This document shows positions 2,206 to 25,628 of a stretch of DNA of 64,000 bases, piece by piece. The position numbers and the translations under genes are program-made. How positions within the stretch are numbered: the first letter of the stretch is position 1; each line of letters begins with the position of its first letter. The notes beneath the pieces are model-generated. The model was given only the letters and a program-made list of their open reading frames with translations, was not told where the DNA came from and did no database searches. This DNA is from Bolinopsis microptera (taxonomy: Eukaryota; Ctenophora; Tentaculata; Lobata; Bolinopsidae): positions 20,360,494 through 20,424,493 of the forward strand of contig NC_087082.1 in assembly GCF_026151205.1 (NCBI RefSeq). Reading direction: 5' to 3'.

Positions 2206-2941
2206 GTTTATATAGGTAATCAATAATCATTTGCCCAGACTGAAGGCATTCCTTATGTTGATATATATGAATTATAATATTTCTATTATTTCATGCCAAT
2301 CACCTCACGTAATAACGATAGAATATTTTTATGATAATATTGACTCCGCAAGAATATCGTAACTATTTTATTGAAAAAGAAATAGGAGTTATATGATTGA
2401 ATATCCTTGCCCATTTTTGTACCTGGCCCCATAAATTACAAATATTTGTGATAATATGATATTCTCATTATTTTACACGTGATGACGTGATGCCCATATA
2501 AGGAGTGAGAACACGACTGCTTAGAGAGATCAGGACTCTCTCTTTATCACGAGAACTCCTGTTTCAGGAATTATTGTGATAACGAGATATTCATATTGTA
2601 TTCTGGATTTCAGCTTTTAGGCGTAATTCTTAATAATATAATATATGCATTGGTCTGTGAACATGATCTGTGAAGTATGATCACGGTATTAAGGCAGAGG
2701 CAATATGTAAGTGCGGTTATATTTTGCAAATAGTGCGATGCCTATATGTTGCCTCTGTCTTAAGGGTGGTCTGTGAAGTGGGAATATGGTTTGCAAGCAT
2801 GATGTATCAATATAGCTTGTAAATGTGATTTTTAACTGAAGTCAGTGAACATAGCATGATCTGTGAGATAGTTATCAATATTAATCCACACTAAATAATC
2901 AATAAGATTGAGCTCAATACTAACTTTCTCCCCAATTCCAG

Positions 2942-3123
2942 TACACGACGCAGTCCCACACGCTTTATTGCCTGGTAATGGAATTAGCTGAAGGGGGAGA
3001 GTTGCTGACATTCGTCAAGAACAACAACGAACACAAGCGTCTTGAGGAGGCAAAGGCGAGACCTTTCGTACGCCAACTCATATCAGCTCTATACTATCTT
3101 CATAGCAAGGGCATCGTTCACAG
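2942..3123 (+). CDS. HUNK-like serine/threonine kinase: hinge, helices D/E and HR of the catalytic loop
   Basis: After a CCAATTCCAG acceptor the frame reads LVMELAEGGELLTFVK (beta-5, hinge, helix D), then RLEEAKARPFVRQLISAL and YLHSKGIVH (helix E). This closely follows HUNK (RLEE, RQLISA, LH, VVHRD), a kinase related to AMPK. The exon ends in phase 2 inside the Arg codon of the HRD triad (AG|GTAACG), completed by A at the start of the next exon. The intron begins with a 36-bp array that repeats the last exon bases with the donor. The GVNMYAML motif downstream is the main reason to prefer HUNK over other AMPK-related kinases. Confidence 0.85.
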
Positions 3124-3360
3124 GTAACGTTAGATTTATGAAGGAGTAATCGTTCACAGGTAACGTTAGATTTATGAAGGAGTAATCGTTCACAGGTAAC
3201 GTTAGATTTATGAAGGAGTAATCGTTCACAGGTAACGTTAGATTTATGAAGGAGTAATCGTTCACAGGTAACGTTAGATTTATGAAGGAGTAATGCGTTC
3301 ACAGGTAACGTTAGATTTATGAAGGAGTAATCGTTCACAGGTAACGTTTAAAGATTTATG
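3124..3360 (+). repeat. 36-bp tandem array containing the 5' splice site
   Basis: Seven GTAACG donors occur at 36-bp spacing (3124, 3160, 3196, 3232, 3268, then about 3305 and 3341 after a 1-bp insertion). Each unit ends in CGTTCACAG, a copy of the last exon bases, so each unit recreates the exon end (CACAG|GTAACG). Reading past the first donor gives CAC AGG TAA, an immediate stop. Only the first donor yields kinase. Confidence 0.9.
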
Positions 3361-3888
3361 GATTCGTTGCAGGAATCAAACTGTTAAGTCCATAGTTTTA
3401 AGTTCCTGATTATTCTAAATTGAATCATTTAGATAAGTTAAATATTCCTGATCACTAAAATCTATGCAACAGTAATAGGGATACATTATAAGTTCTATTG
3501 TGATTAAGTCAAAAAAGAGAAAATTAGTCGGCAAATGATTTTAAAAGAGAGTTGGGATGGGGGGAGGAGGCAAAGGTACCTACAGTGTGTTTAGGCCTGT
3601 TATCTCAGATGATAGTAATATTTGCTGAATCAAGTGGTAAAATACGTAGATCGTTTTCTTATAGGATCGTTTATTGGTGGTGGTTCCCCAGAACTAATCA
3701 ATTATTCCGATGGTCTTATCAGCAGGTGGTTATGTGCCTTTCCTCGGTAGAATGTTCCGCGGTATTACAAACGCTGTCATTATGCATTTCTCTAGAGTTT
3801 CCAAAATAGTTGGAGAAAGACAGCACCCTAGCTCCGTCGTTACAGGGATAATTATGATTTGCCAATATTTGACCAAAGTTTACTTCAG

Positions 3889-3947
3889 AGATTTGAAGAT
3901 GGAAAACATCCTGCTCAACAAAAAGAAGACTGAAGTTAAAATAATCG
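3889..3947 (+). CDS. HUNK-like kinase: catalytic loop exon
   Basis: Acceptor TTACTTCAG. The first base completes Arg, giving HRDLKMEN, the catalytic loop with the base Asp, the Lys and the Mg-binding Asn. It continues ILLNKKKTEVKII and ends in phase 1 (ATC G|GTGAGT), so that Asp of DFG is split with the next exon. All residues expected of an active kinase are present. The DLKMEN form fits the SNF1/AMPK/HUNK group. Confidence 0.9.
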
Positions 3948-4382
3948 GTGAGTCATTTAATTGGCAAGTTTCTTCTCTCTTCGCCTCTATCCTTTTGGGT
4001 TTTATCGTTCTCTTTCTTCGATAATTGATCTTATCGTTTTTCTAAAGTTCAACGCAGCTCACGACTGATTATCACTCAGAGGACTGAGCCAAACACAATC
4101 ATTTAAATTCGAAGCAAAATAATCGAGAAAACAACTTGCTTTCAAATTTGAAATTTTGGAATATATGGTTCCGCGCTATTGAGAATGGAGATTGTGTTGT
4201 CAGTAAAATGGCATCAGATATAAAATACATACTGCATCTAAATATATCATCTATTTTTTCCCTCGGGCATAAATACTTTTTTTCAGTCAAATAGTCAGAT
4301 ATTACATCGGTTATCAGACTGTGGATTGTTTAATCCTGATTAGTCGTGTTTATAGTAAAACTTCATTTCTTATTGTGTCAGC

Positions 4383-4456
4383 GCCTTCCTGGCTCAGTTG
4401 GTTAGAGCGTCAGTCTCATAATCTGAAGGTCGTGAGTTCGAGCCTCACGGAGGGCA
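4383..4456 (+). tRNA. tRNA-Met (elongator, anticodon CAT)
   Basis: A 74-nt cloverleaf. The acceptor arm GCCTTCC pairs with GGAGGGC (one G-T wobble), with discriminator A at 4456. The D arm is GCTC/GAGC, the anticodon arm TCAGT-CTCATAA-TCTGA has anticodon CAT at 4417-4419, and the T arm is GTGAG-TTCGAGC-CTCAC. The anticodon arm is the one seen in animal elongator Met tRNAs, including the non-canonical T-T pair closing the loop. A-box (GGCTCAGTTGGTTAGAGC) and B-box (GTTCGAGCC) match pol III promoters. It is intronless and lies in the sense orientation inside a kinase intron. Confidence 0.93.
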
Positions 4457-5713
4457 TAGATTTTGTCCAATCACAAACAAGAATGGTTAATTTCTAGAAA
4501 GAGTTGAGAGGTTTCAAATCACTTTTATCTTCTATCCAATAAAACTTCACACTACCCCTGTCAAGATAAAGAATGTTTCATTAGCAAGTGAACCAATGTT
4601 CAGTCCAATATTCTCGTGTGTGATCGGGGAGATCAAATTGCCACGAATATGGTCGTAATAGCTCTAATTATAAGGTTAAGTATTGGAATCTTGCTCTTTC
4701 ACCCTCATTAGCATCATTATCCCTTAACTCGCTGTTCAAGTTTACTGATCCTATTTTTAGCACATTTTGATCACAAAGCAATAATTCTGAATGCCTGCAA
4801 CCGAAACCACGCCCTAAATATTCTAATTTCTTATCCTGTAACCTGGAACCACGATTTTGGTGACCCTAAAACCCGGTTCACGGTAAGTATGTATAGTCAA
4901 CCAATTTGCAGGTATCAGGCCGCCCAAACTTCTCGTAGAGCTGTTATTAACATATCGGTTGACTTGTCGTTACTTGTGTGCCAACTGGCACGTGAGCCAA
5001 ATAATAACCATGTAAGTTGAATATACCACGTATAAATATGGTAAACTGTTCAAGAGCCTCACTAATTACACTCGCATCTGCTTGTACAAGCAAATCATGA
5101 TGACCGTGGTGGATATTAATTGCACAGCCATTGGTCCAGGGGCCAATCGTCTACATTTAATCACGATTTGTAGTGTATGGAACGCGCGAAACTTATTTTA
5201 AAATGAAAATATGAAGCAACTCAGCGCCCAGTGTGACATGACGAGAAATTCTGTATTCGGACTATTGAAAGTCGTGTGCCCCATGAAATACTTTCGGATT
5301 CTGATATGATCCTTTTCTCTTCTTTGGGACACCTCATGCTGGTTGAATCACACCTATCTGATATATTTTGTTGATAAGACTGAGCTGAACGGATTTGTAT
5401 GCAAATCTGAAATCGGGCCAGATGTGCAGTGCGCGGCTTATAGGATTATAGTCCGTACTTTCACGTACTGGACGATTTGTAAACAAAGGATTGTTGAAAA
5501 TTGAAATTTGAAACTTGAACAGGGCAATGTCATAAAAAACCCTAGTTTATCAATCGTCACATCCATCAGGCATATGCGTTTCTAACCAAGGACTTGTTCG
5601 AGAGGAAAGATTCACCTAGCAGTACCGACCCACAGTAATCAGTATTTACTATTTAGGTACTACGCTATAAATTTGGGAGTCATGGCAACAGCACTCACCA
5701 AACACATCCCCAG

Positions 5714-6193: not shown

Positions 6194-6356
6194 GTTGACG
6201 TGTGGAGTTTAGGTGTGAACATGTACGCCATGTTAGTCGGTAAACTGCCCTTCAGATCCTCCCGGAACCACAGCAACCCCCGAGCCAAGCTCCTTCAACA
6301 GATATCAGCCGGGCTGGGCGCTCATCAGGAGGCTGATGCCGCTCATCTTCATCCCT
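6194..6356 (+). CDS. HUNK-like kinase: helix F to helix G exon
   Basis: Acceptor CCCCTACAG. The frame reads VDVWSLGVNMYAMLVGKLPF, matching HUNK's DVWSIGVNMYAML almost residue for residue; most related kinases have GVILY or GVVLY here, so this is the strongest family marker. The remainder (RSSRNHSNPRAKLLQQISAG) covers helix G and is divergent. It ends in phase 1 (CCC T|GTGAGT). The last roughly 25 bases of this exon with the donor are copied twice more in the intron. Confidence 0.9.
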
Positions 6357-6658
6357 GTGAGTATAATGTACTTCAGTACCAGGTAACCAGGTAACCAGGT
6401 AACCAGGTAACCAGGTAACCAGGTAACCAGGTAACCAGGTAACCAGGTAACCAGGTAACCAGGATGCCGCTCATCTTCAACCCTGTGAGTATGATGTACT
6501 TCAGTACCAGGTAACCAGGTAACCAGGTAACCAGGTAACCAGGTAACCAGGTAACCAGGTAACCAGGTAACCAGGTAACCAGGTAACCAGGTAACCAGGT
6601 AACCAGGTAACCAGGTAACCAGGTAACCAGGATGCCGCTCATCTTCATCCCTGTGAGT
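6336..6658 (+). repeat. Three copies of the exon end and donor, separated by (GTAACCAG)n
   Basis: GATGCCGCTCATCTTC...CCCT|GTGAGTAT occurs at about 6336, 6463 and 6630. Between the copies lie 8-bp (GTAACCAG)n blocks, about 10 and 16 units. Every 8-bp unit contains CAG|GTAAC, which is both a 3'-splice-site end and a donor. Reading past the first donor runs into TAA within the first 8-bp block. Confidence 0.9.
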
Positions 6659-6843
6659 ATCATGAGTTTTTGGAGAAGGAGGTTGGGTTTCAAAAATAAA
6701 TTGAATGGTTTATCAGGAATTTGGATGCTTATTACATGATTGCTCATTAATTTAAAGCTTATCTTCCATTATTATATTTCATATCTGAGGTTTACACACC
6801 ATTCTTTTCTGAAGAGTAACAACTGATAAAGATCCTATTTCAG

Positions 6844-6998
6844 CGTGTCTAAATCTGATAAAAGGGATGTTACAACCAGACCCCTGTAAAAGGCTGAAGC
6901 TGACTGCTGTAATGCAACACCCGTGGGTTACGAACAAGGGAACGTGGCCTCTTTACCCTTACATTACCCCCAAGTGTAATGATGCCTTAGAAAAACAG
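6844..6998 (+). CDS. HUNK-like kinase: end of C-lobe
   Basis: Acceptor CTATTTCAG. With T from the previous exon the frame reads SCLNLIKGMLQPDPCKRLKL, then TAVMQHPWVTN. This is the helix H/I region with the DP..R motif and the HPW of the last kinase-domain helix, matching HUNK (LLEPDPVKRP, RWLNEN). The tail (KGTWPLYPYITPKCNDALEK) leads into the UBA-like exon. It ends in phase 0 (CAG|GTAGGT). About 85 bp of its 3' part with the donor are duplicated at 7062-7146. Confidence 0.9.
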
Positions 6999-7015
6999 GT
7001 AGGTCACTTCAGTAC

Positions 7016-7150
7016 CAGGTAACCAGGTAACCAGGTAACCAGGTAACCAGGTAACCAGGTTGCCATGGGTAACGAACAAGGGAACGTGGCCTCTTTACCC
7101 TTACATTACCCCCAAGTGTAATGATGCCTTAGAAAAACAGGTAGGTCATT
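7016..7150 (+). repeat. (GTAACCAG)n block and partial duplicate of the preceding exon with its donor
   Basis: Five GTAACCAG units (7016-7060) are followed by a copy of the preceding exon's last 85 bp or so, identical from AACGAACAAGG onward and ending CAG|GTAGGTCA (7062-7146). The copy has CAGGTTGCCATGGGTAACG where the exon has CCGTGGGTTACG, so it is a partial exon duplication with an AG close upstream and an intact donor. It could in principle act as a duplicated exon. Confidence 0.85.
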
Positions 7151-7405
7151 ATAGGAGGGCAGTTTTGTTCAACAACATAAACTGTGTTTGTGCTGGGCAT
7201 TTTTCGGCTTTTTCAAATCTCTTTGAAATAAAATTTGTCAAAATCTCTCGTTAAAAAATAAACTTTGTCAATATTACCCGTAAAAAATTTGTCAAAAACT
7301 CTCGTTAAAAATAAAATTTGTCAGACTTTGCCGGGGGTCCCTCCAAACATCTCAGATCAAATAATCACGCACTCTCCCGATCCCACCTAAACCCCCTTTT
7401 GCCAG

Positions 7406-7552
7406 GTAATACACCAGATGTCACGACTGCTAAAAGTCAACCAGTCTGACATTAAACGAGCTATAGACGAGAACAGGCTGGACTGGATATCAGCTATTTA
7501 TCATCTGTTGATGCGGGACAAAGAACAACACCTCGCTGCTAAAGTTTCCAAC
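7406..7552 (+). CDS. HUNK-like kinase: UBA-like helical segment
   Basis: Acceptor TTTTGCCAG, phase 0-0, 49 codons. It reads VIHQMSRLLKVNQSDIKRAI and then AIYHLLMRDKEQHL. HUNK has, directly after its kinase domain, a similar segment (helix, a few residues, DVI, then ILAIYFLL). AMPK-related kinases commonly carry a UBA or UBA-like autoregulatory domain at this position. The AIYHLL motif is the clearest shared element. Its role in regulation is inferred from the family. Confidence 0.8.
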
Positions 7553-7736
7553 GTAAGTTATTTGGGTTACGTGGTTAATCAATAATCATCTGTCATTTTA
7601 AAATTCATGACTCGACACAAACAAATTTTTCTTATCTCACCGATATTGAAGAGTGGAAGTTGTTGATAACCTACAGTACTTAGTCATCTGATAACAAGCT
7701 TCGAACACTTCTAGAATCTCAAATAACCCCCTCACA

Positions 7737-8876
7737 TCCCCTCAGTTCCACGACCCCTCACTAACCCCTCGGTTCCCCGACCCCTCACTAACCCATCACC
7801 TCTTTACAACATCATCCCCAGCTGAAGACGATTTACACATGTATTTTGAAAGCTCCTGCTAAAACAAACTTTTCGTATCACTTATATGTTTTAAATAATC
7901 CCCATCCAGTCTCCAGACTAACCCATCAGTTCAACGACCCCTCACTAGCCCCTCAGTTCCCCGACCCCTCACTAACCCATCAGTTCAACGACCCCTCACT
8001 AACCCCTCAGTTACCCGACCCCTCACAAACCCCTCAGTTCCCCGACCCCCCACTAACCCATCAGTTCCATAACCCCTCACTCACCCCTCAGTTCCCCGAC
8101 CCCTCACTAACCCATCAGTTCCCCGACACCTCACTAACCCCTCAGTTCCCCGACACCTCACTAACCCCTCAGTTCCCCGACCCCTCACTAACCCCTCAGT
8201 TCCTCGACCCCTCACTAACCCCTCAGTTCACCGACCCCTCACCGACCCCTCAGTTCCCCGACCCCTCATTAACCCTCGTTCCCCGACCCCTCACTAACCC
8301 CTCACATCCCAGACCCCTCACTAACCCCTCACATCCCCGACCCCTCACTAACCCCTCCGTTCCCCGACCCCTCACTAACCCCTCAGTTCCCCGACCCCGC
8401 ACTAACCCCTCAGTTCCCCGACCCCGCACTAACCCCTCAGTTCCACGACCCCTCACTAACCCCTCAGTTCCCCGACCCCCCACTAACCCATCAGTTCCAT
8501 AACCCCTCACTCACCCCTCAGTTCCCCGACCTCTCTCTAACCCCCCGTTCCCCGACCCCTCACTAACCCCTCACATCCCCGACCCCTCACTAACTCCTCC
8601 GTTCCCCGACCCCTCACTAACCCCTCAGTTCCCCGACCCCGCACTAACCCTCAGTTCCCCGACCCCGCACTAACCCCTCAGTTCCCCGACCCCTCACTAA
8701 CCCCTCCGTTCCCCGACTCCTCACTAACCCCTCCGTTCCCCGACCCCTCACTAACCCCTCAGTTCCCCGACCCCTCACTAACCCCTCAGTTCCCCGACCC
8801 CTCACTAACCCCTCACTTCCCCGACCCCTCACTAACCCCTCCATTCCCCGACCCCTCACTAACCCCTCACATCCCA
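7737..8876. repeat. 27-bp pyrimidine-rich minisatellite abutting a 3' splice site
   Basis: About 40 imperfect 27-bp units (core CCCCTCACTAACCCCTCAG plus TTCCCCGA) run up to the AG at 8876-8877. They form an extended pyrimidine tract. Some units end CATCCCAG|AC, the same as the true acceptor (for example near 8305). The unit also contains CTAAC, a good branch-point core. The long frames on both strands (PDPSLTPQF repeats; GRGTEGLVR repeats) are repeat by-products. Confidence 0.9.
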
Positions 8877-8877
8877 G

Positions 8878-9017
8878 ACCTCGCTGAGTGGTGAGATGAC
8901 GGAGAGTACGAGTGGAGTGGGGACCTCTATTGCAGACGAGCAGGAGTCCAAGACAATAGAGCAGATCACAGCACTCACCCTGAACGGCAGACACAGCTCC
9001 CCTGCTACTCCTCTAAT
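8878..9017 (+). CDS. HUNK-like kinase: start of disordered tail
   Basis: Acceptor CATCCCAG, phase 0 start, phase 2 end (CTA AT|GTAAGT). It reads TSLSGEMTESTSGVGTSIAD and ends LNGRHSSPATPLM, a Ser/Thr-rich, probably unstructured linker after the UBA-like segment. The exon's last 28 bases form part of the 43-bp unit of the huge downstream array. Reading past the donor gives CTA ATG TAA, a stop. Confidence 0.75.
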
Positions 9018-12000
9018 GTAAGTTTATTTAGAGACACAGCTCCCCTGCTACTCCTCTAATGTAAGTTTAGTTAGAGACACAGCTCCCCTGCTACTCCTCT
9101 AATGTAAGTTTATTTAGAGACACAGCTCCCCTGCTACTCCTCTAATGTAAGTTTAGTTAGAGACACAGCTCCCCTGCTACTCCTCTAATGTAAGTTTATT
9201 TAGAGACACAGCTCCCCTGCTACTCCTCTAATGTAAGTTTAGTTAGAGACACAGCTCCCCTGCTACTCCTCTAATGTAAGTTTAGTTAGAGACACAGCTC
9301 CCCTGCTACTCCTCTAATGTAAGTTTAGTTAGAGACACAGCTCCCCTGCTACTCCTCTAATGTAAGTTTAGTTAGAGACACAGCTCCCCTGCTACTCCTC
9401 TAATGTAAGTTTAGTTAGAGACACAGCTCCCCTGCTACTCCTCTAATGTAAGTTTATTTAGAGACACAGCTCCCCTGCTACTCCTCTAATGTAAGTTTAT
9501 TTAGAGACACAGCTTCCCTGCTACTCCTCTAATGTAAGTTTATTTAGAGACACAGCTCCCCTGCTACTCCTCTAATGTAAGTTTATTTAGAGACACAGCT
9601 CCCCTGCTACTCCCCTAATGTAAGTTTAGTTAGAGACACAGCTCCCCTGCTACTCCTCTAATGTAAGTTTATTTAGAGACACAGCTCCCCTGCTACTCCT
9701 CTAATGTAAGTTTAGTTAGAGACACAGCTCCCCTGCTACTCCTCTAATGTAAGTTTAGTTGGAGACACAGCTCCCCTGCTACTCCTCTAATGTAAGTTTA
9801 TTTAGAGACACAGCTCCCCTGCTACTCCTCTAATGTAAGTTTATTTAGAGACACAGCTCCCCTGCTACTCCTCTAATGTAAGTTTATTTAGAGACACAGC
9901 TCCCCTGCTACTCCTCTAATGTAAGTTTATTTAGAGACACAGCTCCCCTGCTACTCCTCTAATGTAAGTTTATTTAGAGACACAGCTCCCCTGCTACTCC
10001 TCTAATGTAAGTTTATTTAGAGACACAGCTCCCCTGCTACTCCCCTAATGTAAGTTTAGTTAGAGACACAGCTCCCCTGCTACTCCTCTAATGTAAGTTT
10101 ATTTAGAGACACAGCTCCCCTGCTACTCCTCTAATGTAAGTTTATTTAGAGACACAGCTCCCCTGCTACTCCTCTAATGTAAGTTTAGTTGGAGACACAG
10201 CTCCCCTGCTACTCCTCTAATGTAAGTTTATTTAGAGACACAGCTCCCCTGCTACTCCTCTAATGTAAGTTTAGTTGGAGACACAGCTCCCCTGCTACTC
10301 CTCTAATGTAAGTTTATTTAGAGACACAGCTCCCCTGCTACTCCTCTAATGTAAGTTTATTTAGAGACACAGCTCCCCTGCTACTCCTCTAATGTAAGTT
10401 TATTTAGAGACACAGCTCCCCTGCTACTCCTCTAATGTAAGTTTATTTAGAGACACAGCTCCCCTGCTACTCCTCTAATGTAAGTTTATTTAGAGACACA
10501 GCTCCCCTGCTACTCCTCTAATGTAAGTTTATTTAGAGACACAGCTCCCCTGCTACTCCTCTAATGTAAGTTTATTTAGAGACACAGCTCCCCTGCTACT
10601 CCTCTAATGTAAGTTTATTTAGAGACACAGCTCCCCTGCTACTCCTCTAATGTAAGTTTATTTAGAGACACAGCTCCCCTGCTACTCCTCTAATGTAAGT
10701 TTAGTTAGAGACACAGCTCCCCTGCTACTCCTCTAATGTAAGTTTATTTAGAGACACAGCTCCCCTGCTACTCCTCTAATGTAAGTTTAGTTAGAGACAC
10801 AGCTCCCCTGCTACTCCTCTAATGTAAGTTTATTTAGAGACACAGCTCCCCTGCTACTCCTCTAATGTAAGTTTAGTTAGAGACACAGCTCCCCTGCTAC
10901 TCCTCTAATGTAAGTTTAGTTAGAGACACAGCTCCCCTGCTACTCCTCTAATGTAAGTTTATTTAGAGACACAGCTCCCCTGCTACTCCTCTAATGTAAG
11001 TTTAGTTAGAGACACAGCTCCCCTGCTACTCCTCTAATGTAAGTTTAGTTAGAGACACAGCTCCCCTGCTACTCCTCTAATGTAAGTTTAGTTAGAGACA
11101 CAGCTCCCCTGCTACTCCTCTAATGTAAGTTTAGTTAGAGACACAGCTCCCCTGCTACTCCTCTAATGTAAGTTTATTTAGAGACACAGCTCCCCTGCTA
11201 CTCCTCTAATGTAAGTTTAGTTGGAGACACAGCTCCCCTGCTACTCCTCTAATGTAAGTTTATTTAGAGACACAGCTCCCCTGCTACTCCTCTAATGTAA
11301 GTTTATTTAGAGACACAGCTCCCCTGCTACTCCTCTAATGTAAGTTTATTTAGAGACACAGCTCCCCTGCTACTCCTCTAATGTAAGTTTAGTTAGAGAC
11401 AAAGCTCCCCTGCTACTCCTCTAATGTAAGTTTAGTTAGAGACACAGCTCCCCTGCTACTCCTCTAATGTAAGTTTAGTTAGAGACACAGCTCCCCTGCT
11501 ACTCCTCTAATGTAAGTTTATTTAGAGACACAGCTCCCCTGCTACTCCTCTAATGTAAGTTTATTTAGAGACACAGCTCCCCTGCTACTCCTCTAATGTA
11601 AGTTTAGTTGGAGACACAGCTCCCCTGCTACTCCTCTAATGTAAGTTTATTTAGAGACACAGCTCCCCTGCTACTCCTCTAATGTAAGTTTATTTAGAGA
11701 CACAGCTCCCCTGCTACTCCTCTAATGTAAGTTTATTTAGAGACACAGCTCCCCTGCTACTCCTCTAATGTAAGTTTATTTAGAGACACAGCTCCCCTGC
11801 TACTCCTCTAATGTAAGTTTATTTAGAGACACAGCTCCCCTGCTACTCCTCTAATGTAAGTTTATTTAGAGACACAGCTCCCCTGCTACTCCTCTAATGT
11901 AAGTTTATTTAGAGACACAGCTCCCCTGCTACTCCTCTAATGTAAGTTTATTTAGAGACACAGCTCCCCTGCTACTCCTCTAATGTAAGTTTATTTAGAG

Positions 12001-15000
12001 ACACAGCTCCCCTGCTACTCCTCTAATGTAAGTTTAGTTAGAGACACAGCTCCCCTGCTACTCCTCTAATGTAAGTTTATTTAGAGACACAGCTCCCCTG
12101 CTACTCCTCTAATGTAAGTTTAGTTAGAGACACAGCTCCCCTGCTACTCCTCTAATGTAAGTTTAGTTAGAGACACAGCTCCCCTGCTACTCCTCTAATG
12201 TAAGTTTAGTTAGAGACACAGCTCCCCTGCTACTCCTCTAATGTAAGTTTAGTTAGAGACACAGCTCCCCTGCTACTCCTCTAATGTAAGTTTATTTAGA
12301 GACACAGCTCCCCTGCTACTCCTCTAATGTAAGTTTAGTTAGAGACACAGCTCCCCTGCTACTCCTCTAATGTAAGTTTAGTTAGAGACACAGCTCCCCT
12401 GCTACTCCTCTAATGTAAGTTTAGTTAGAGACACAGCTCCCCTGCTACTCCTCTAATGTAAGTTTATTTAGAGACACAGCTCCCCTGCTACTCCTCTAAT
12501 GTAAGTTTATTTAGAGACACAGCTCCCCTGCTACTCCTCTAATGTAAGTTTAGTTAGAGACACAGCTCCCCTGCTACTCCTCTAATGTAAGTTTAGTTAG
12601 AGACACAGCTCCCCTGCTACTCCTCTAATGTAAGTTTAGTTAGAGACACAGCTCCCCTGCTACTCCTCTAATGTAAGTTTAGTTAGAGACACAGCTCCCC
12701 TGCTACTCCTCTAATGTAAGTTTAGTTAGAGACACAGCTCCCCTGCTACTCCTCTAATGTAAGTTTAGTTAGAGACACAGCTCCCCTGCTACTCCTCTAA
12801 TGTAAGTTTAGTTAGAGACACAGCTCCCCTGCTACTCCTCTAATGTAAGTTTATTTAGAGACACAGCTCCCCTGCTACTCCTCTAATGTAAGTTTAGTTA
12901 GAGACACAGCTCCCCTGCTACTCCTCTAATGTAAGTTTAGTTAGAGACACAGCTCCCCTGCTACTCCTCTAATGTAAGTTTATTTAGAGACACAGCTCCC
13001 CTGCTACTCCTCTAATGTAAGTTTAGTTAGAGACACAGCTCCCCTGCTACTCCTCTAATGTAAGTTTATTTAGAGACACAGCTCCCCTGCTACTCCTCTA
13101 ATGTAAGTTTAGTTAGAGACACAGCTCCCCTGCTACTCCTCTAATGTAAGTTTATTTAGAGACACAGCTCCCCTGCTACTACTCTAATGTAAGTTTATTT
13201 AGAGACACAGCTCCCCTGCTACTACTCTAATGTAAGTTTATTTAGAGACACAGCTCCCCTGCTACTCCTCTAATGTAAGTTTATTTAGAGACACAGCTCC
13301 CCTGCTACTACTCTAATGTAAGTTTAGTTAGAGACACAGCTCCCCTGCTACTCCTCTAATGTAAGTTTATTTAGAGACACAGCTCCCCTGCTACTCCTCT
13401 AATGTAAGTTTAGTTAGAGACACAGCTCCCCTGCTACTCCTCTAATGTAAGTTTATTTAGAGACACAGCTCCCCTGCTACTCCTCTAATGTAAGTTTAGT
13501 TAGAGACACAGCTCCCCTGCTACTCCTCTAATGTAAGTTTAGTTAGAGACACAGCTCCCCTGCCACTCCTCTAATGTAAGTTTAGTTAGAGACACAGCTC
13601 CCCTGCTACTCCTCTAATGTAAGTTTATTTAGAGACACAGCTCCCCTGCTACTCCTCTAATGTAAGTTTAGTTAGAGACACAGCTCCCCTGCTACTCCTC
13701 TAATGTAAGTTTATTTAGAGACACAGCTCCCCTGCCACTCCTCTAATGTAAGTTTAGTTAGAGACACAGCTCCCCTGCTACTCCTCTAATGTAAGTTTAT
13801 TTAGAGACACAGCTCCCCTGCTACTCCTCTAATGTAAGTTTAGTTAGAGACACAGCTCCCCTGCTACTCCTCTAATGTAAGTTTATTTAGAGACACAGCT
13901 CCCCTGCCACTCCTCTAATGTAAGTTTAGTTAGAGACACAGCTCCCCTGCTACTCCTCTAATGTAAGTTTAGTTAGAGACACAGCTCCCCTGCTACTCCT
14001 CTAATGTAAGTTTATTTAGAGACACAGCTCCCCTGCTACTCCTCTAATGTAAGTTTAGTTGGAGACACAGCTCCCCTGCTACTCCTCTAATGTAAGTTTA
14101 TTTAGAGACACAGCTCCCCTGCTACTCCTCTAATGTAAGTTTAGTTAGAGACACAGCTCCCCTGCTACTCCTCTAATGTAAGTTTAGTTAGAGACACAGC
14201 TCCCCTGCTACTCCTCTAATGTAAGTTTATTTAGAGACACAGCTCCCCTGCTACTCCTCTAATGTAAGTTTATTTAGAGACACAGCTCCCCTGCTACTCC
14301 TCTAATGTAAGTTTATTTAGAGACACAGCTCCCCTGCTACTCCTCTAATGTAAGTTTAGATAGAGACACAGCTCCCCTGCTACTCCTCTAATGTAAGTTT
14401 ATTTAGAGACACAGCTCCCCTGCTACTCCTCTAATGTAAGTTTAGTTAGAGACACAGCTCCCCTGCTACTCCTCTAATGTAAGTTTAGTTAGAGACACAG
14501 CTCCCCTGCTACTCCTCTAATGTAAGTTTAGTTAGAGACACAGCTCCCCTGCTACTCCTCTAATGTAAGTTTAGTTAGAGACACAGCTCCCCTGCTACTC
14601 CTCTAATGTAAGTTTAGTTAGAGACACAGCTTCCCTGCTACTCCTCTAATGTAAGTTTAGTTAGAGACACAGCTCCCCTGCTACTCCTCTAATGTAAGTT
14701 TAGTTAGAGACACAGCTCCCCTGCTACTCCTCTAATGTAAGTTTAGTTAGAGACACAGCTCCCCTGCTACTCCTCTAATGTAAGTTTATTTAGAGACACA
14801 GCTTCCCTGCTACTCCTCTAATGTAAGTTTAGTTAGAGACACAGCTCCCCTGCTACTCCTCTAATGTAAGTTTAGTTAGAGACACAGCTCCCCTGCTACT
14901 CCTCTAATGTAAGTTTATTTAGAGACACAGCTCCCCTGCTACTCCTCTAATGTAAGTTTATTTAGAGACACAGCTCCCCTGCTACTCCTCTAATGTAAGT

Positions 15001-18000
15001 TTAGTTAGAGACACAGCTCCCCTGCTACTCCTCTAATGTAAGTTTATTTAGAGACACAGCTCCCCTGCTACTCCTCTAATGTAAGTTTATTTAGAGACAC
15101 AGCTCCCCTGCTACTCCTCTAATGTAAGTTTAGTTAGAGACACAGCTCCCCTGCTACTCCTCTAATGTAAGTTTAGTTAGAGACACAGCTCCCCTGCTAC
15201 TCCTCTAATGTAAGTTTAGTTAGAGACACAGCTCCCCTGCTACTCCTCTAATGTAAGTTTATTTAGAGACACAGCTCCCCTGCTACTCCTCTAATGTAAG
15301 TTTATTTAGAGACACAGCTCCCCTGCTACTCCTCTAATGTAAGTTTAGTTAGAGACACAGCTCCCCTGCTACTCCTCTAATGTAAGTTTATTTAGAGACA
15401 CAGCTCCCCTGCTACTCCTCTAATGTAAGTTTAGTTAGAGACACAGCTCCCCTGCTACTCCTCTAATGTAAGTTTATTTAGAGACACAGCTCCCCTGCTA
15501 CTCCTCTAATGTAAGTTTAGTTAGAGACACAGCTCCCCTGCTACTCCTCTAATGTAAGTTTAGTTAGAGACACAGCTCCCCTGCCACTCCTCTAATGTAA
15601 GTTTAGTTAGAGACACAGCTCCCCTGCCACTCCTCTAATGTAAGTTTATTTAGAGACACAGCTCCCCTGCTACTCCTCTAATGTAAGTTTAGTTAGAGAC
15701 ACAGCTCCCCTGCTACTCCTCTAATGTAAGTTTATTTAGAGACACAGCTCCCCTGCTACTCCTCTAATGTAAGTTTAGTTAGAGACACAGCTCCCCTGCT
15801 ACTCCTCTAATGTAAGTTTAGTTAGAGACACAGCTCCCCTGCTACTCCTCTAATGTAAGTTTATTTAGAGACACAGCTCCCCTGCTACTCCTCTAATGTA
15901 AGTTTATTTAGAGACACAGCTCCCCTGCTACTCCTCTAATGTAAGTTTAGTTAGAGACACAGCTCCCCTGCTACTCCTCTAATGTAAGTTTAGTTAGAGA
16001 CACAGCTCCCCTGCTACTCCTCTAATGTAAGTTTATTTAGAGACACAGCTCCCCTGCCACTCCTCTAATGTAAGTTTAGTTAGAGACACAGCTCCCCTGC
16101 TACTCCTCTAATGTAAGTTTAGATAGAGACACAGCTCCCCTGCTACTCCTCTAATGTAAGTTTAGTTAGAGACACAGCTCCCCTGCTACTCCTCTAATGT
16201 AAGTTTATTTAGAGACACAGCTCCCCTGCCACTCCTCTAATGTAAGTTTAGTTAGAGACACAGCTCCCCTGCTACTCCTCTAATGTAAGTTTAGATAGAG
16301 ACACAGCTCCCCTGCTACTCCTCTAATGTAAGTTTATTTAGAGACACAGCTCCCCTGCTACTCCTCTAATGTAAGTTTAGTTAGAGACACAGCTCCCCTG
16401 CTACTCCTCTAATGTAAGTTTATTTAGAGACACAGCTCCCCTGCTACTCCTCTAATGTAAGTTTAGTTAGAGACACAGCTCCCCTGCTACTCCTCTAATG
16501 TAAGTTTAGATAGAGACACAGCTCCCCTGCTACTCCTCTAATGTAAGTTTATTTAGAGACACAGCTCCCCTGCTACTCCTCTAATGTAAGTTTATTTAGA
16601 GACACAGCTCCCCTGCTACTCCTCTAATGTAAGTTTATTTAGAGACACAGCTCCCCTGCTACTCCTCTAATGTAAGTTTAGTTAGAGACACAGCTCCCCT
16701 GCTACTCCTCTAATGTAAGTTTAGTTAGAGACACAGCTCCCCTGCTACTCCTCTAATGTAAGTTTAGTTAGAGACACAGCTCCCCTGCTACTACTCTAAT
16801 GTAAGTTTATTTAGAGACACAGCTCCCCTGCTACTCCTCTAATGTAAGTTTAGTTAGAGACACAGCTCCCCTGCTACTCCTCTAATGTAAGTTTATTTAG
16901 AGACACAGCTCCCCTGCCACTCCTCTAATGTAAGTTTAGTTAGAGACACAGCTCCCCTGCTACTCCTCTAATGTAAGTTTAGTTAGAGACACAGCTCCCC
17001 TGCTACTCCTCTAATGTAAGTTTAGTTAGAGACACAGCTCCCCTGCTACTCCTCTAATGTAAGTTTAGTTAGAGACACAGCTCCCTGCTACTCCTCTAAT
17101 GTAAGTTTAGTTAGAGACACAGCTCCCCTGCTACTCCTCTAATGTAAGTTTATTTAGAGACACAGCTCCCCTGCTACTCCTCTAATGTAAGTTTATTTAG
17201 AGACACAGCTCCCCTGCTACTCCTCTAATGTAAGTTTAGTTAGAGACACAGCTCCCCTGCTACTCCTCTAATGTAAGTTTAGTTAGAGACACAGCTCCCC
17301 TGCTACTCCTCTAATGTAAGTTTATTTAGAGACACAGCTCCCCTGCTACTCCTCTAATGTAAGTTTATTTAGAGACACAGCTCCCCTGCCACTCCTCTAA
17401 TGTAAGTTTATTTAGAGACACAGCTCCCCTGCTACTCCTCTAATGTAAGTTTAGTTAGAGACACAGCTCCCCTGCTACTCCTCTATTGTAAGTTTATTTA
17501 GAGACACAGCTCCCCTGCTACTCCTCTAATGTAAGTTTATTTAGAGACACAGCTCCCCTGCTACTCCTCTAATGTAAGTTTAGTTAGAGACACAGCTCCC
17601 CTGCTACTCCTCTAATGTAAGTTTAGTTAGAGACACAGCTCCCCTGCTACTCCTCTAATGTAAGTTTATTTAGAGACACAGCTCCCCTGCTACTCCTCTA
17701 ATGTAAGTTTATTTAGAGACACAGCTCCCCTGCTACTCCTCTAATGTAAGTTTATTTAGAGACACAGCTCCCCTGCTACTCCTCTAATGTAAGTTTATTT
17801 AGAGACACAGCTCCCCTGCTACTCCTCTAATGTAAGTTTAGTTAGAGACACAGCTCCCCTGCTACTCCTCTAATGTAAGTTTATTTAGAGACACAGCTCC
17901 CCTGCTACTCCTCTAATGTAAGTTTATTTAGAGACACAGCTCCCCTGCTACTCCTCTAATGTAAGTTTATTTAGAGACACAGCTCCCCTGCTACTCCTCT

Positions 18001-19483
18001 AATGTAAGTTTATTTAGAGACACAGCTCCCCTGCTACTCCTCTAATGTAAGTTTATTTAGAGACACAGCTCCCCTGCTACTCCTCTAATGTAAGTTTATT
18101 TAGAGACACAGCTCCCCTGCTACTCCTCTAATGTAAGTTTAGTTAGAGACACAGCTCCCCTGCTACTCCTCTAATGTAAGTTTATTTAGAGACACAGCTC
18201 CCCTGCTACTCCTCTAATGTAAGTTTAGTTAGAGACACAGCTCCCCTGCCACTCCTCTAATGTAAGTTTAGTTAGAGACACAGCTCCCCTGCTACTCCTC
18301 TAATGTAAGTTTATTTAGAGACACAGCTCCCCTGCTACTCCTCTAATGTAAGTTTAGTTAGAGACACAGCTCCCCTGCTACTCCTCTAATGTAAGTTTAT
18401 TTAGAGACACAGCTCCCCTGCTACTCCTCTAATGTAAGTTTAGTTAGAGACACAGCTCCCCTGCTACTCCTCTAATGTAAGTTTATTTAGAGACACAGCT
18501 CCCCTGCTACTCCTCTAATGTAAGTTTAATTAGAGACACAGCTCCCCTGCTACTCCTCTAATGTAAGTTTATTTAGAGACACAGCTCCCCTGCTACTCCT
18601 CTAATGTAAGTTTATTTAGAGACACAGCTCCCCTGCTACTCCTCTAATGTAAGTTTAGTTAGAGACACAGCTCCCCTGCTACTCCTCTAATGTAAGTTTA
18701 TTTAGAGACACAGCTCCCCTGCTACTCCTCTAATGTAAGTTTAGTTAGAGACACAGCTCCCCTGCTACTCCTCTAATGTAAGTTTAGTTAGAGACACAGC
18801 TCCCCTGCTACTCCTCTAATGTAAGTTTATTTAGAGACACAGCTCCCCTGCTACTCCTCTAATGTAAGTTTATTTAGAGACACAGCTCCCCTGCTACTCC
18901 TCTAATGTAAGTTTATTTAGAGACACAGCTCCCCTGCTACTCCTCTAATGTAAGTTTATTTAGAGACACAGCTCCCCTGCTACTCCTCTAATGTAAGTTT
19001 AGTTAGAGACACAGCTCCCCTGCTACTCCTCTAATGTAAGTTTATTTAGAGACACAGCTCCCCTGCTACTCCTCTAATGTAAGTTTATTTAGAGACACAG
19101 CTCCCCTGCTACTCCTCTAATGTAAGTTTATTTAGAGACACAGCTCCCCTGCTACTCCTCTAATGTAAGTTTATTTAGAGACACAGCTCCCCTGCTACTC
19201 CTCTAATGTAAGTTTAGTTAGAGACACAGCTCCCCTGCTACTCCTCTAATGTAAGTTTATTTAGAGACACAGCTCCCCTGCTACTCCTCTAATGTAAGTT
19301 TATTTAGAGACACAGCTCCCCTGCTACTCCTCTAATGTAAGTTTATTTAGAGACACAGCTCCCCTGCTACTCCTCTAATGTAAGTTTATTTAGAGACACA
19401 GCTCCCCTGCTACTCCTCTAATGTAAGTTTAGTTAGAGACACAGCTCCCCTGCTACTCCTCTAATGTAAGTTTATTTAGAGAC
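8990..19483 (+). repeat. About 244 copies of a 43-bp unit carrying an exon end and 5' splice donor
   Basis: The unit starts GACACAGCTCCCCTGCTACT, continues CCTCTAAT|GTAAGT and ends TTATTTAGA. The first 28 bases equal the end of the upstream exon and the rest is the intron start, so every unit has a strong AAT|GTAAGT donor. The span divided by 43 gives about 244 units with few substitutions: TTATTTAGA versus TTAGTTAGA or TTAGTTGGA, CTGCCACTC or CTACTACTC for CTGCTACTC, and one 1-bp deletion near 17080. Variants recur at multiples of 43, often 172 bp. Confidence 0.97.
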
Positions 19484-19617: not shown

Positions 19618-19710
19618 GAGTAACACTAACCGATCAACCACAAAACCAACTTCCGCTAAAACACCCCCCGCAAGTAAACAGAACAGTAACACCAGCAGTC
19701 CTGTAACACT
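19618..19710 (+). CDS. HUNK-like kinase tail exon (Thr/Ser/Asn-rich)
   Basis: Phase 2-2 exon of 93 bases. AT from the previous exon plus G gives Met, then SNTNRSTTKPTSAKTPPASK and QNSNTSSPVTL. It is low-complexity and basic/Thr-rich, with no recognised domain. The donor is ACACT|GTGAGT. Its 3' half with the donor is copied twice more in the intron. The assignment rests on phase matching on both sides. Confidence 0.65.
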
Positions 19711-20266
19711 GTGAGTATTGTAACTATGGCAACTAGTAGTGTAACTATTGTAACTATGGTAACTAGTAGTGTAACTATGGTAACTAGTAGTGTAACTATG
19801 GTAACTAGTAGTGTAACTATGGTAACTAGTAGTGTAACTATGGTAACTAGTAGTGTAACTATGGTAACAAGTAGTGTAACTATGGTAACACCCCCCGCAA
19901 GTAAACAGAACAGTAACACCAGCAGTCCTGTAACACTGTGAGTATTGTAACTATGGTAACTAGCTGTGTAACTATAGTAACTAGTAGTGTAACTATGGTA
20001 ACTAGTAGTGTAACTATGGTAACTAGTAGTGTAACTATGGTAACTAGTAGTGTAACTATGGTAACTAGTAGTGTAACTATGGTAACTAGTAGTGTAACTA
20101 TGGTAACTAGTAGTGTAACTATGGTAACTAGTAGTGTAACTATGGTAACTAGTAGTGTAACTATGGTAACTAGCTGTGTAACTATAGTATTAACTAGTAG
20201 TGTAACTATGGTAAAACCCCCCGCAAGTAAACAGAACAGTAACACCAGCAGTCCTGTGACACTGTG
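19711..20266 (+). repeat. GTAACTATG/ACTAGTAGT minisatellite with two extra copies of the exon 3' half
   Basis: 21-bp units (GTAACTATGGTAACTAGTAGT) separate copies of the exon segment CCCCCCGCAAGTAAACAGAA through to ACACT|GTGAGT, at about 19890-19938 and 20217-20264. The copies keep the donor but have no good acceptor in front. The 76- and 109-residue VTSSVTM frames are repeat by-products; in the real exon frame the first donor is followed at once by TGA. Confidence 0.9.
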
Positions 20267-20388: not shown

Positions 20389-22042
20389 GGAAACTGTGAC
20401 TGAGGACAAAAAAACTGACACACAAACTGACACGCAAACTTCTGAAACAGTACATACCAGTGTAACTATGGAAACAACCGATACTTTTACAGACCAACTC
20501 TCCCTCCCAACTGACACTACTCACTCCATTACCAATGAAAACAAGGTCCAACTACCACCTAGAAAATCAGTTAGTTCGGATGAATCTAAGTACTATTCAG
20601 TACTGGAGATTGAAGGGACGCCGCCCCGTGATAGTGATGTCATACAATCCTCCTGTAATGACATCGTCACTGCATCGTCACATGAAGCGCAAAATCACCC
20701 CAATAGCAATAAATTGTGGCCAGAATCGTCTGGAGGATCGGGCTCGTCCAATAACTCACAAAATAGAAAGGATTTTCACGAAGCTATGGAAAAAACAGTT
20801 CAAATCAGGAAGAAAATTGAATCAAAGCGTTCCTGGAAAATTAGTCCACGTGAAGATGATCCCCCGACTACAGCTCCTTATATGGGCATCACGTGTAACA
20901 GAACCTCTATGCCATCTCAGAGAGACCCTCCCTCTATACCTGAGAGATCAGCGAGAGACAGGTTGGATTATTCTAGACGACCAGATTTTAGAGATCCTAA
21001 GTTTGGAAACCGAGGGGCGGATGATCGTTCACGTGGCAGGATCGGGGACGATCAATTTCATGATTTCAAAAGTGAGTATGGATCTTATAATGACAGACAA
21101 AGTAGGGAAAACAGAGAGAACAGACCATCTGATGACTACAAACCTCGACAGTCTGATGACTACAGGTTGAGAACAGAGTATGATGAGAGACCTTACTCCA
21201 GCTACTACAACAGAAGACAATCAGATAACTTTAAAAACAGGCGCCCACCACCCCCTCCACCACCTCGTCCCCAGATCCCACCACCACTTCGTCCCCAGAT
21301 TCCTGAAAGGTATGATAAAGGTAGTTTAAGAAATTCCAGGACCTTTAGCTCTGTGAGGGGTCGTCCATCTCGGCAGGCTGTCCGGTCTCGTGGTCACAGT
21401 AGGACAAGGTCGTACGGTGGAGAGGGTTCTAGTGAGCTGGGACCACGTGACTTTAGATATATATCTGAAGGATCGTTTCTCCCATCTACAAGAGATAGAT
21501 CTGCTCCTCCGCACAAATTTAGAGATCGAAATCAGCCTGATTATTCTTCCACTTTATTCAGGAAATCTTCTACTCTACCCCAAAAATCTTCCTCTCTACC
21601 TAGAACATCTTTACATTCTTCAGCTCAACCTCGACCGATTTCCTCACGCAGTCGATCTCAACCTTCGTCTGCCCCGAGAGTTAGGGTATCGTTTGCAAAG
21701 GATCACGAGGTCAGGAGTAATTCAGGTTCCAGGAGTGTAGAACATGGCCTACATCAGGTAAACTTGAGCAGTGAAGGGGGACGTTCTAAAACGTTACCAA
21801 GACGCATGCCTAGTTTTCAATCAAGCTCCCAAAATTATCCGTTTACTAGACAAGATGCCGATCATGATATCCAGTGTGGTAATCAAAAGGAAGAAAGAGT
21901 TGGGTCAAGGAATCCTGATGATCTGAGACCCCTCAATTACGGAGACTATTTAGAAAATTCGTATAGGAGCAGTGGTCGGTTTAAAAGGAAATCAAACTAC
22001 AGTAGTAGAAGTTTTAAAAATTTCACTTTTTACAACTTGTAA
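20389..22042 (+). CDS. HUNK-like kinase: large disordered Arg/Ser/Pro-rich tail exon
   Basis: Acceptor AAATTTCAG. CT from the previous exon plus G gives Leu, then ETVTEDKKTDTQTDTQTSET. The exon encodes about 550 residues without a recognisable fold: an acidic/Thr start, repeated RPSDDYKPRQSDDYR motifs, a polyproline stretch (RRPPPPPPPRPQIPPPLRPQ) that could bind SH3 or EVH1 domains, then SR-type dipeptides. Long Ser-rich tails are known in HUNK. The frame ends NFTFYNL-TAA at 22042. The same bases form a GTAATA donor (TT|GTAATA) that fits the phase of the exon at 22310, so the protein may end here or continue. Confidence 0.75.
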
Positions 22043-22309
22043 TAATTAAAATCTTAAACCATTGCATCACCTGAATTTTAAAATTTCAAACGATCGTCTA
22101 CATGTTTTTGACTTAATCGCATTGCATGTAACAGTAAAAGTTCAAATTTGTCTTTTTAAATTTTGTATGTTTTCATAATAGACTAGTATTTTCTCATTTA
22201 AGTTTTAACTAAGTGAGCTATATTTTGTTCTGATGATATTGGAAATTGTAGATGTTTTACAGGATTGAAAATGTAGATGTTTTTTCTCTTTAAAACAAAT
22301 CTAGCACAG

Positions 22310-22642
22310 GTCAACAGAATTTGTACAGAGTAGAGAAAATCTCAGAAATTTAATGGATAAACTCAAGAAAAACTTCAAAAATACACACTACGATTTGGCC
22401 GATCAATCAGAATCAGAAAGATCACCCATCACCAGACACATACACAAAACTTTTGACTCGTTTAAATCCATTTTTCACTCGCTGACCCCGGATCTGAGAC
22501 ATACAAACGAACGTACAGACGAACACACTGACCTCAAAACAAACGAACGAAACAGCGATGATTTCCACGTGGTAAAGTGTGAAATTCAGAGCGATTCTAG
22601 TTCGGAATATTTGTCAGTTTTATCTGTCGTGCCTTACGATTG
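22310..22642 (+). CDS. Downstream tail exon (or start of a separate gene at ATG 22353)
   Basis: Acceptor CTAGCACAG; G completes a Leu codon if joined to 22039. It reads STEFVQSRENLRNLMDKLKK, then SFKSIFHSLTPDLRHTNERT. It is charged, Ser-rich and partly helical, and unrecognised. The frame is open upstream of ATG 22353 to the acceptor, which favours an internal exon; the alternative is a first exon with a start at 22353. It ends in phase 2 (GAT TG|GTAAGT). Confidence 0.6.
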
Positions 22643-23131: not shown

Positions 23132-23684
23132 GGAGATCAGCCCGACATATTGCGTCACGTGGTTCCCCTAATACTGATCATGTGTACCAAGTAACCTAGT
23201 AACCTATTAACCTAGTAACCTAGTAACCTAGTAACCTAGAAACCTAGTAACCTAGTAACCTAGTAACCTAGTAACCTAGTAACCTAGTAACCTAGTAACC
23301 TAGTAACCTAGTAACCTAGTAACCTAGTAACCTAGTAACCTAGTAACATAGTAACATAGTAACCTAGTAACATAGTAACCTAGTAACCTAGTAACCTAGT
23401 AACCTAGTAACCTAGTAACCTAGTAACCTAGTAACCTAGTGACCTAGTGACCTAGTAACCTAGTTACCTAGTAACCTAGTAACCTAGTAACCTAGTTACC
23501 TAGTAACCTAGTCACCTAGTAACCTAGTAACCTAATAACCTAGTAACCTAGTAACCTAGTAACCTAGTAACCTAGTAACCTAGTAACCTAGTAACCTAGT
23601 AACCTAGTAACCTAGTAACCCAGTAACCTAGTAACCTAGTAACCTAGTAACCTAGTAACCTAGTAACCTAATATCGTAACCCAG
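23132..23684 (+). repeat. Extra copy of the next exon's 5' part followed by (CCTAGTAA)n
   Basis: The 3' splice site and about 58 exon bases are present at 23124-23189 and again at 23677-23742, differing at two coding positions (GAC/GGC-type and AAT/AAG). Between them are about 60 units of the 8-bp CCTAGTAA. The first copy breaks into the repeat at GTGTACCA|AGTAAC, so it has an acceptor and, if CAA|GTAACC is used, a donor too. Confidence 0.9.
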
Positions 23685-23783
23685 GGAGATCAGCCCGGCA
23701 TATTGCGTCACGTGGTTCCCCTAAGACTGATCATGTGTACCACGAATACGGCCCTCAGAAGGATAAACGCAGGATACTATCAG
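23685..23783 (+). CDS. Tail exon (intact copy of a duplicated exon)
   Basis: Phase 1-1 exon. G plus GG gives Gly, then RSARHIASRGSPKTDHVYHE and YGPQKDKRRILS. It is basic, with no recognised domain. It is the downstream, complete copy of the pair and is followed by a donor (TCAG|GTAATA). A phase 1-1 exon can be skipped or duplicated without a frame change. Confidence 0.6.
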
Positions 23784-24644: not shown

Positions 24645-25628
24645 TTACAACAACAAAGGTTCACCTGGTTGAAGCTGTCTTTGACCTAGTAACATAGTAA
24701 CATGGGGGAGAGCATGATGAGATGATCCACCAGGACGTATCTTTTGGAGCAAGAACTCCCTGAAGCTAGAGAGGGTGAGGCAGTAGATGAAGAAGTTAGA
24801 CATTACATTGATCATGGACAGGAACACGCTAACTCTATGCAGATGGGAAGGACTTGTAAGATGATGGATATCAAGCACGAAGGAAACAGCGAGTGGCAGA
24901 GTGGAGATCAGGAAAACAGCAGCAGTCAGGACAACTGTTGCAACCCCTCGTAGGTTGACGCTACTTCTTCTCGCACGTGCAGCTCTTCTAGCCACATCGA
25001 GAGTCAGCAGGGAGGCTATGATGACTATCAGGTTTGGAGCGACGGTAGTCAAGATGGTACCTATGGGTAGCATCTTTTTCCAAATATCACTGCTAAATCG
25101 GTATTCACAATCATATGTTCTGTAGTCGAAAAGCACATCTTCACTGCCAAGGAGGTAACACAGAAGAGGGTTTACAAGAGAAGATAACCAGATTACTGCA
25201 CACACTGTATGAAACCTCCTTCTTGACCAACTGCCTGCTCGAAGAGGGAACTTCAGGGTGAGGTACTTGGAAGTGACTAATGTAGGGATGAGGTACCTAC
25301 CACATGACCCAACCCAGTAGGAGAATAATGGTTTCACCAGACATAAGGTGTCTCCTAGGACCCAGGAGCCCGCAAAGAGCGATATTGTGTGGGGGAGGAT
25401 ATGTGTTATCGAGATCAACAGGTCGGACACTGCAATGTGCTGTATTATTGTGACTATGACCTTGTGCAGCTTGAAAGCTCCTCGTTGATTTGTTGCGTAA
25501 AGGATAACACTATCCCCAATGAGTGATGAAGCAGTGACGAAGGCGGTGTAGCAAGCCAAGGAGTACCTCTCTGCGTCACTATGGATACCAAAAGTGGCAT
25601 AGTCACTATAATTGTTTGAAGTGATCAT
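24645..25628 (-). CDS. Rhodopsin-class (family A-like) G-protein-coupled receptor
   Basis: Single-exon 327-residue receptor lying antisense in a kinase intron. Seven hydrophobic segments fall at about residues 23-47, 56-82, 97-119, 139-160, 185-210, 227-252 and 264-287. Class A marks are HIAVSDLL in TM2 (Asp69), Cys96 and Cys174 for the TM3-loop disulfide, and Pro245 in TM6. Key motifs are altered: TM1 has GD where GN is usual, DRY is replaced by SKY (TSKYLTLKFPLR), CWxP is missing in TM6, and TM7 ends MSNFFIYCLT instead of NPxxY. Loop 3 is short and Arg-rich (RRAARARRSS). Cnidarian and placozoan genomes hold large families of such receptors. The ligand is unknown. A first Met at 25628 leaves an N-terminus of about 22 residues. 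Confidence 0.9.
   Translation of the reverse strand: MITSNNYSDYATFGIHSDAERYSLACYTAFVTASSLIGDSVILYATNQRGAFKLHKVIVTIIQHIAVSDLLISITHILPHTISLFAGSWVLGDTLCLVKPLFSYWVGSCGRYLIPTLVTSKYLTLKFPLRAGSWSRRRFHTVCAVIWLSSLVNPLLCYLLGSEDVLFDYRTYDCEYRFSSDIWKKMLPIGTILTTVAPNLIVIIASLLTLDVARRAARARRSSVNLRGVATVVLTAAVFLISTLPLAVSFVLDIHHLTSPSHLHRVSVFLSMINVMSNFFIYCLTLSSFREFLLQKIRPGGSSHHALPHVTMLLGQRQLQPGEPLLL

Follow-up and report, generated by a model that had tools for sequence, protein, structure and literature searches.

A 244-copy array of a 5' splice site spanning an exon-intron boundary in a predicted kinase gene of the ctenophore Bolinopsis microptera

Results and discussion

The kinase gene and its annotated proteins

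The stretch of DNA examined here, hereafter the window, is 64,000 nucleotides long and comes from the ctenophore Bolinopsis microptera (C11:20360494-20424493, in an assembly of 264.65 Mb and 232 contigs, with C1 to C13 of 15.2-26.2 Mb each and C14 of 0.2 Mb). It holds a kinase gene in which the 5' splice site (donor) of exon 7 is multiplied in a 43-bp tandem array that occupies nearly the whole of the following intron. A hand-built model of the gene, with 17 coding exons on the + strand (2942-34037), gave a single frame of 1217 residues with a lone terminal stop. A protein kinase domain was recognised in its first 807 residues, which also matched a SIK3-type UBA domain; among solved structures the kinase part was closest to MARK3 and AMPK, and the relatives found among proteins (the best 120 of 2,000) were named MARK-like and HUNK. 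Judged by these sequence matches, the host of the array is a MARK/HUNK-like kinase gene of B. microptera.

The model was compared with the B. microptera protein annotated at NCBI as MAP/microtubule affinity-regulating kinase 3-like isoform X3 (733 amino acids). The C-terminal 645 residues of isoform X3 were identical, letter for letter, to exons of the window; its first 88 residues had no counterpart in the window or in the 10 kb upstream of it. This isoform joins the first donor of exon 7 (exon end 9017) to the start of exon 8 (19618), the same exon 7-8 junction is present in the ortholog of Mnemiopsis leidyi (736 amino acids), and neither annotated protein contains an extra exon 7 unit. The limits given for these two exons in a preliminary description of the locus, 8878-9017 and 19618-19710, were exact by the annotated protein, and the joining of the one to the other at the first donor, which that description had supposed, is what the annotation and the Mnemiopsis ortholog both have. 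Exons 9 and 10 of the model (20389-22642) add 569 in-frame residues rich in S, R and D that are absent from isoform X3; the two keep the frame jointly and may be alternative exons.

A giant donor array at exon 7

Intron 7 is 10,600 nt long, and all except about 150 nt of it is made up of a single 43-bp tandem array at 8989-19483 (+ strand), for which Tandem Repeats Finder (TRF) gave 244.1 copies with 98% matches. Parsing into units resolved it into 244 units of 15 types that follow one another in irregular order. The repeat unit spans the exon-intron boundary, with 29 exon bases (8989-9017, the 3' end of exon 7) and 14 intron bases, and the exon end so placed agrees with the annotated protein. 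The unit reads GTAAGTTTA[T/G]TTAG, and its chief variable site is column 39 (126 T, 117 G, 1 A). The donor GT was unbroken throughout, and GTAAGT was kept in 244/244 units: 243 carry AAT/GTAAGT (AATGTAAGT; the slash marks the end of the exon) and one carries ATT/GTAAGT (ATTGTAAGT). Exact donors follow one another at 43 bp, beginning with donor 1 at 9018, with two exceptions, a step of 42 and, at the ATTGTAAGT unit, a step of 86. The preliminary description had thus been right to count about 244 copies of one donor; its array start (8990) and its 28 exon bases per unit were each one base off. It had also called the donor strong, which suits the perfect GTAAGT and not the poor exon side: with a generic metazoan matrix, the site scored 8.0 bits vs 12.9 for CAG/GTAAGT. 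AGGT is absent from the unit, and a scan confined to the array found neither AATAAA nor ATTAAA. The number of 244 copies is that of one assembly. The longest run of unit types that recurs comprises just 14 units (602 bp), short enough for long reads to give the array a unique placement.

As had been predicted in the preliminary description, choice of a later donor brings in a stop, and it does so in every case: 243/243 later donors led to a stop at the same codon (codon 320 of a partial model), which leaves donor 1 as the sole frame-keeping donor of the array. Every extra copy comes after donor 1 and falls within the intron, which would leave the messenger RNA (mRNA) unaltered provided that the exon-adjacent donor is the one chosen.

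Other multiplied splice sites in the gene

The array is not a singular case: its kind is known in amphioxus, and the kinase gene has further multiplied donors at exons 1, 4, 5, 8 and 16. Overall, 6/16 donors of the model were multiplied, with 7, 3, 2, 244, 3 and 74 copies at exons 1, 4, 5, 7, 8 and 16, respectively; a stricter 24-mer test gave 5, 3, 1, 244, 2 and 74 copies and thus 5/16 multiplied donors. Two of the 17 acceptors (exons 8 and 12) were doubled, so that duplication of splice sites was seen at both 5' and 3' boundaries. At exons 1, 4, 5, 7 and 8 the first donor copy alone keeps the frame, later copies running into a stop in 254/254 cases, and at both doubled acceptors the frame is kept by the last copy alone. 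Stops and frame single out the exon-adjacent copy in all seven of these informative cases, and the spare copies accordingly lie inside the intron.

Exon 1 is followed by a 36-bp array with seven copies of the donor CAG/GTAACG (3113-3348, + strand), delimited by TRF and the frame test. The exon 4 donor is present three times within 6346-6662 (+ strand; exon ends 6356, 6484 and 6652), with runs of ACCAGGTA between the copies, and that of exon 5 twice within 6988-7150 (+ strand; exon ends 6998 and 7140), where some of the exon is copied with it. Exon 8 (19618-19710, + strand, as in the annotated protein) has two acceptor copies, with exon starts at 19575 and 19618, and three donor copies, with exon ends at 19710, 19937 and 20263; the second acceptor and the first donor are those in frame. 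Exon 12 (23685-23783) has its acceptor copied upstream at 23132, with an 8-bp array between the two (23132-23783, + strand). A C-rich 27-bp array (7917-8880, + strand; TRF) reaches the exon 7 acceptor, which was excluded from the multiplied acceptors because the strict 24-mer test gave one copy.

The second largest of the donor arrays, at exon 16, consists of 74 units of 42 bp (30158-33266, + strand; TRF and frame test). Its outer donors read AAG/GTGAGC in 71 units and AAG/GTGGGC in three, and all of them are in frame (74/74), with 14 residues gained per unit. In 54 units there is also an inner donor, CAA/GTAAGC, so that most units have two donors nine bases apart. Isoform X3 uses the inner donor at 30166, and the M. 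leidyi protein has VSK at this point, which belongs to the outer donor. AG/GT is present at the multiplied donors of exons 1, 5 and 16.

Repetition within the gene was also assessed away from its splice sites. None of 290 sampled exon-interior 24-mers was repeated within its own exon, and 244/400 sampled intron 24-mers were repeated within their own intron, a sample dominated by the giant intron. Repetition of donors (6/16) was about as frequent as that of intron interiors. Much the same counts would be expected if repeats arose at any position and were lost from exons alone, and a preference for donors within the gene is therefore not supported. Four of the five simple arrays of the gene touch a junction (p 0.002), a post hoc figure for a gene picked for its arrays and for simple arrays of our own choice.

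Several other features were observed in the window. Many short arrays with units of 8, 9 and 21 bp, based on GTAAC or GTTAC words such as ACCAGGTA, GGTAACTAT and ACCTAGTA, are found at 6378-6631, 19749-20214, 23186-23670 and 40589-42006, several of them between splice-site copies, and also in two of the sampled pieces described below (L013 and L024). Intron 2 of the kinase gene contains a tRNA-Met gene (anticodon CAT; 4383-4456), and intron 12 a nested, intronless gene for a rhodopsin-type receptor on the minus strand (24648-25640; Pfam 7tm_1, E 4.9e-18). An element at 26000-27289 has terminal inverted repeats of 367 nt that are 95% complementary, with 556 nt between them; the one frame of it that was tested gave no Pfam match.

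Likely boundary-spanning arrays beyond the gene

Twenty 10-kb pieces (200 kb) were picked from the genome without regard to repeats, and array regions in five of them (L013, L018, L022, L026 and L030) were read by eye. Two were counted. In L022 an exon (7195-7306) that follows the acceptor TTTCAG is succeeded by 19 units of 50 bp with AAG/GTAAGT in 19/19, and in L030, on the minus strand, 95 open codons follow the last of six copies of the acceptor CCTCAG. By their sequence, these two are likely to be further boundary-spanning arrays; the L022 peptide had no Pfam match, and neither exon has confirmation from a protein match. The region in L018 was dropped, being a coding repeat, and those of L013 and L026, being ambiguous, were left uncounted. 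L013 also has a stretch in which several minisatellites are present twice (about 2850-4470 and 6940-9030), about 4 kb apart and with differing repeat numbers.

Arrays detected by TRF (period of at least 20, at least 2.5 copies) were then scored for donors against 100 shuffles, with three selections and four cut-offs and uncorrected p values. In 19 of the random 10-kb pieces, 7/25 arrays reached 8 bits vs 2.96 expected (p 0.02); L032, a small contig, was omitted from this scoring. The arrays of the window showed no excess at 8 bits (3/21 vs 2.47 expected) and numbered 10/21 vs 5.71 at 6 bits, and in two flanking pieces no array reached the donor-score cut-off. Outside arrays, the 20 pieces, here with L032 included, held two donor 9-mers vs six mirror 9-mers.

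The whole genome was searched for triple donors, defined as three MAGGTRAGT spaced 16-46 bases apart, a strict motif outside which the arrays of the kinase window themselves fall. This gave 1,530 triples (645 + 885) vs 60 (55 + 5) for the mirror motif, and 407 and 440 for two scrambled motifs. Single sites numbered 10,382 for the donor vs 8,307 for the mirror, base rates only 1.25-fold apart. Because the triple counts were dominated by large arrays and the scrambles were high, loci were counted too. The first 100 donor matches listed were all on C1 and reached 25.9 of its 26.2 Mb; among the matches listed, this contig had at least nine loci with triple donors, two with mirror triples and two with those of one scramble, an excess by locus of about 4.5-fold; mirror loci genome-wide, again among the matches listed, numbered eight. 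Nine loci per 26 Mb would extrapolate to about 90 donor-triple loci in the genome vs 8 for the mirror.

A general process could be imagined behind these numbers, one in which mutation in Bolinopsis preferentially amplifies segments that span splice sites, donors foremost (for instance through R-loops over exon ends), and introns grow genome-wide from their own boundaries while the spliceosome dependably settles on the foremost donor, even where there are as many as hundreds of identical ones. We put this forward tentatively and think it rather less probable than its negation.

Origin and use of the exon 7 array

We consider it probable, at roughly 0.8, that the exon 7 array is a giant 'mirage', tolerated as intronic ballast, with the exon-adjacent donor being used and misspliced RNA decaying. 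The word is borrowed from amphioxus, where the cases belong to another phylum and to other genes, and here it names a structure and not descent. Under this explanation, tandem duplication of 43 bp reaching from the last bases of exon 7 across its donor would have given rise to the minisatellite, which would then grow and shrink by slippage or unequal exchange. Donor 1 probably wins, as it would be transcribed first and would close a 140-nt exon that has a real upstream acceptor. Any RNA that took a later donor would meet the stop at once and would presumably be removed by nonsense-mediated decay.

Several points weigh against this account. Its first-donor use is read from annotation and frame, and the duplication origin of the array is itself proposed. 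At exon 16, isoform X3 uses an inner donor and not an outer one, and with 74/74 outer donors in frame the exon-adjacent rule is unreadable there. Simple substrates with two equal donors often favour the intron-proximal one; if so, the opposite choice would be predicted at exon 7, and the kinase gene would be a counter-example needing a cause. RNA folding gives donor 1 no special standing (its paired probability is 0.50 vs 0.48-0.73 for units 2-8), and an RNA structure hiding the later donors was rejected on the folding of units 1-8.

The regularity of the array invites explanations in which the copies have a use. Later donors might often be chosen and their products left to decay, so that the copy number tunes the kinase level, and the single early stop common to 243/243 later donors would suit such regulated waste. 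We regard it as unlikely: the multiplied donors of the kinase gene differ in unit, number and origin, and donor columns were not significantly more conserved than others, being variable in 2/36 cases vs 22/135 for the remaining columns of four arrays (Fisher p 0.11), which gives no significant support for selection on the donors. The same comparison bears on a proposal of the preliminary description, that the array could titrate U1 small nuclear ribonucleoprotein (snRNP), and no sign of this was found. A platform of 244 donors that binds U1 snRNP, titrating it or shielding the 10.6-kb intron from premature polyadenylation, could account for a GTAAGT unbroken in every unit. The array has no AATAAA or ATTAAA to be shielded, the donor columns carry no conservation signal, and U1 is very abundant, which makes titration by one gene unlikely; we judge the platform very improbable, and no function of the array, U1 titration or other, is supported.

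It is also improbable, in our view, that the array is real and its copy number an assembly error. The assembly does have local faults: a copy of about 1.25 kb of this locus is found in C8 (C8:4874993-4876233; L001) and takes in exon 7 with the arrays on either side of it. Aligned over 1,299 columns, this copy shows 103 mismatches and 69 gap openings, transversions outnumbering transitions by 76 to 27. A paralog was rejected as its explanation, given its length, its errors and this excess of transversions, and the copy is probably misplaced uncorrected sequence. A DNA search with array units matched the C8 place only and missed even the array itself, because it skipped common words; it is thus uninformative on other copies. 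Against a wrong copy number stand the 15 unit types, their irregular order and the shortness of the longest recurring run, and in the paper on the published assembly, PacBio continuous long-read and HiFi libraries are named jointly for the three species that it covers (PMC10232365). Lastly, the units might act as dual-specific sites by which the intron is removed piecewise, as tandem AG/GT sites are reported to splice with each other in human UBC (PMC10809524). The multiplied donors of exons 1, 5 and 16 have the AG/GT that this would take, and such removal could apply there; the exon 7 unit has none, so that it cannot apply to the giant array, for which we hold it to be exceedingly improbable.

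Significance

Choice among equal 5' splice sites has mostly been studied with few engineered sites. The exon 7 array offers a natural test of it, with 244 near-identical donors, one right answer and 243 that lead to the same stop, and the exon 16 array, with 74 units and an open frame, is a matched case in which protein would still be produced if a different donor were taken. For B. microptera, Iso-Seq and RNA-seq data exist (PMC10232365), so the question of first-donor use can be asked at once. The array points to boundary copying as a way for an intron to become many times longer, one that ctenophores would share with lancelets.

Comparison with known systems

Minisatellites that span exon-intron boundaries have been described as mirages in amphioxus, in Adh3 and the globin genes BflGb6 and BflGb9 and reportedly also in PGBD5 and troponin C (PMC3087553, PMC3902484). 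In the first of these reports (PMC3087553), the mirages carry splice signals, splicing stays regular by reverse transcription PCR, and length instability is reported, with haplotypes of BflGb6 that have 6 and 3 mirage units. The exon 7 array resembles them in that its unit spans the boundary and its copies carry splice signals (GT in 244/244). It differs from them in being found in a ctenophore, in its scale (244 copies, and 74 at exon 16, vs the 6 and 3 given for BflGb6), in the presence of several arrays in one gene and in the genome-wide enrichment.

In human UBC, too, similar splice sites recur many times within the tandem repeats of a single gene (PMC10809524), and the exon 16 array, with AG/GT and an open frame, is similar to it; in UBC, however, the repeats are coding monomers included in variable number, and the exon 7 unit lacks AGGT. 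The gain of introns by tandem duplication of AGGT proto-splice sites, as outlined in PMC3087553, is comparable in that new splice sites result when a stretch across a boundary is copied. At exon 7 it is an existing intron that was enlarged, and no new intron was seen. No ctenophore precedent for mirage-type repeats was found in the literature searched, subscription journals being mostly outside it. The boundary-spanning repeat itself is thus already known, and the novelty lies in its occurrence in another phylum, its scale and its clustering within a single gene.

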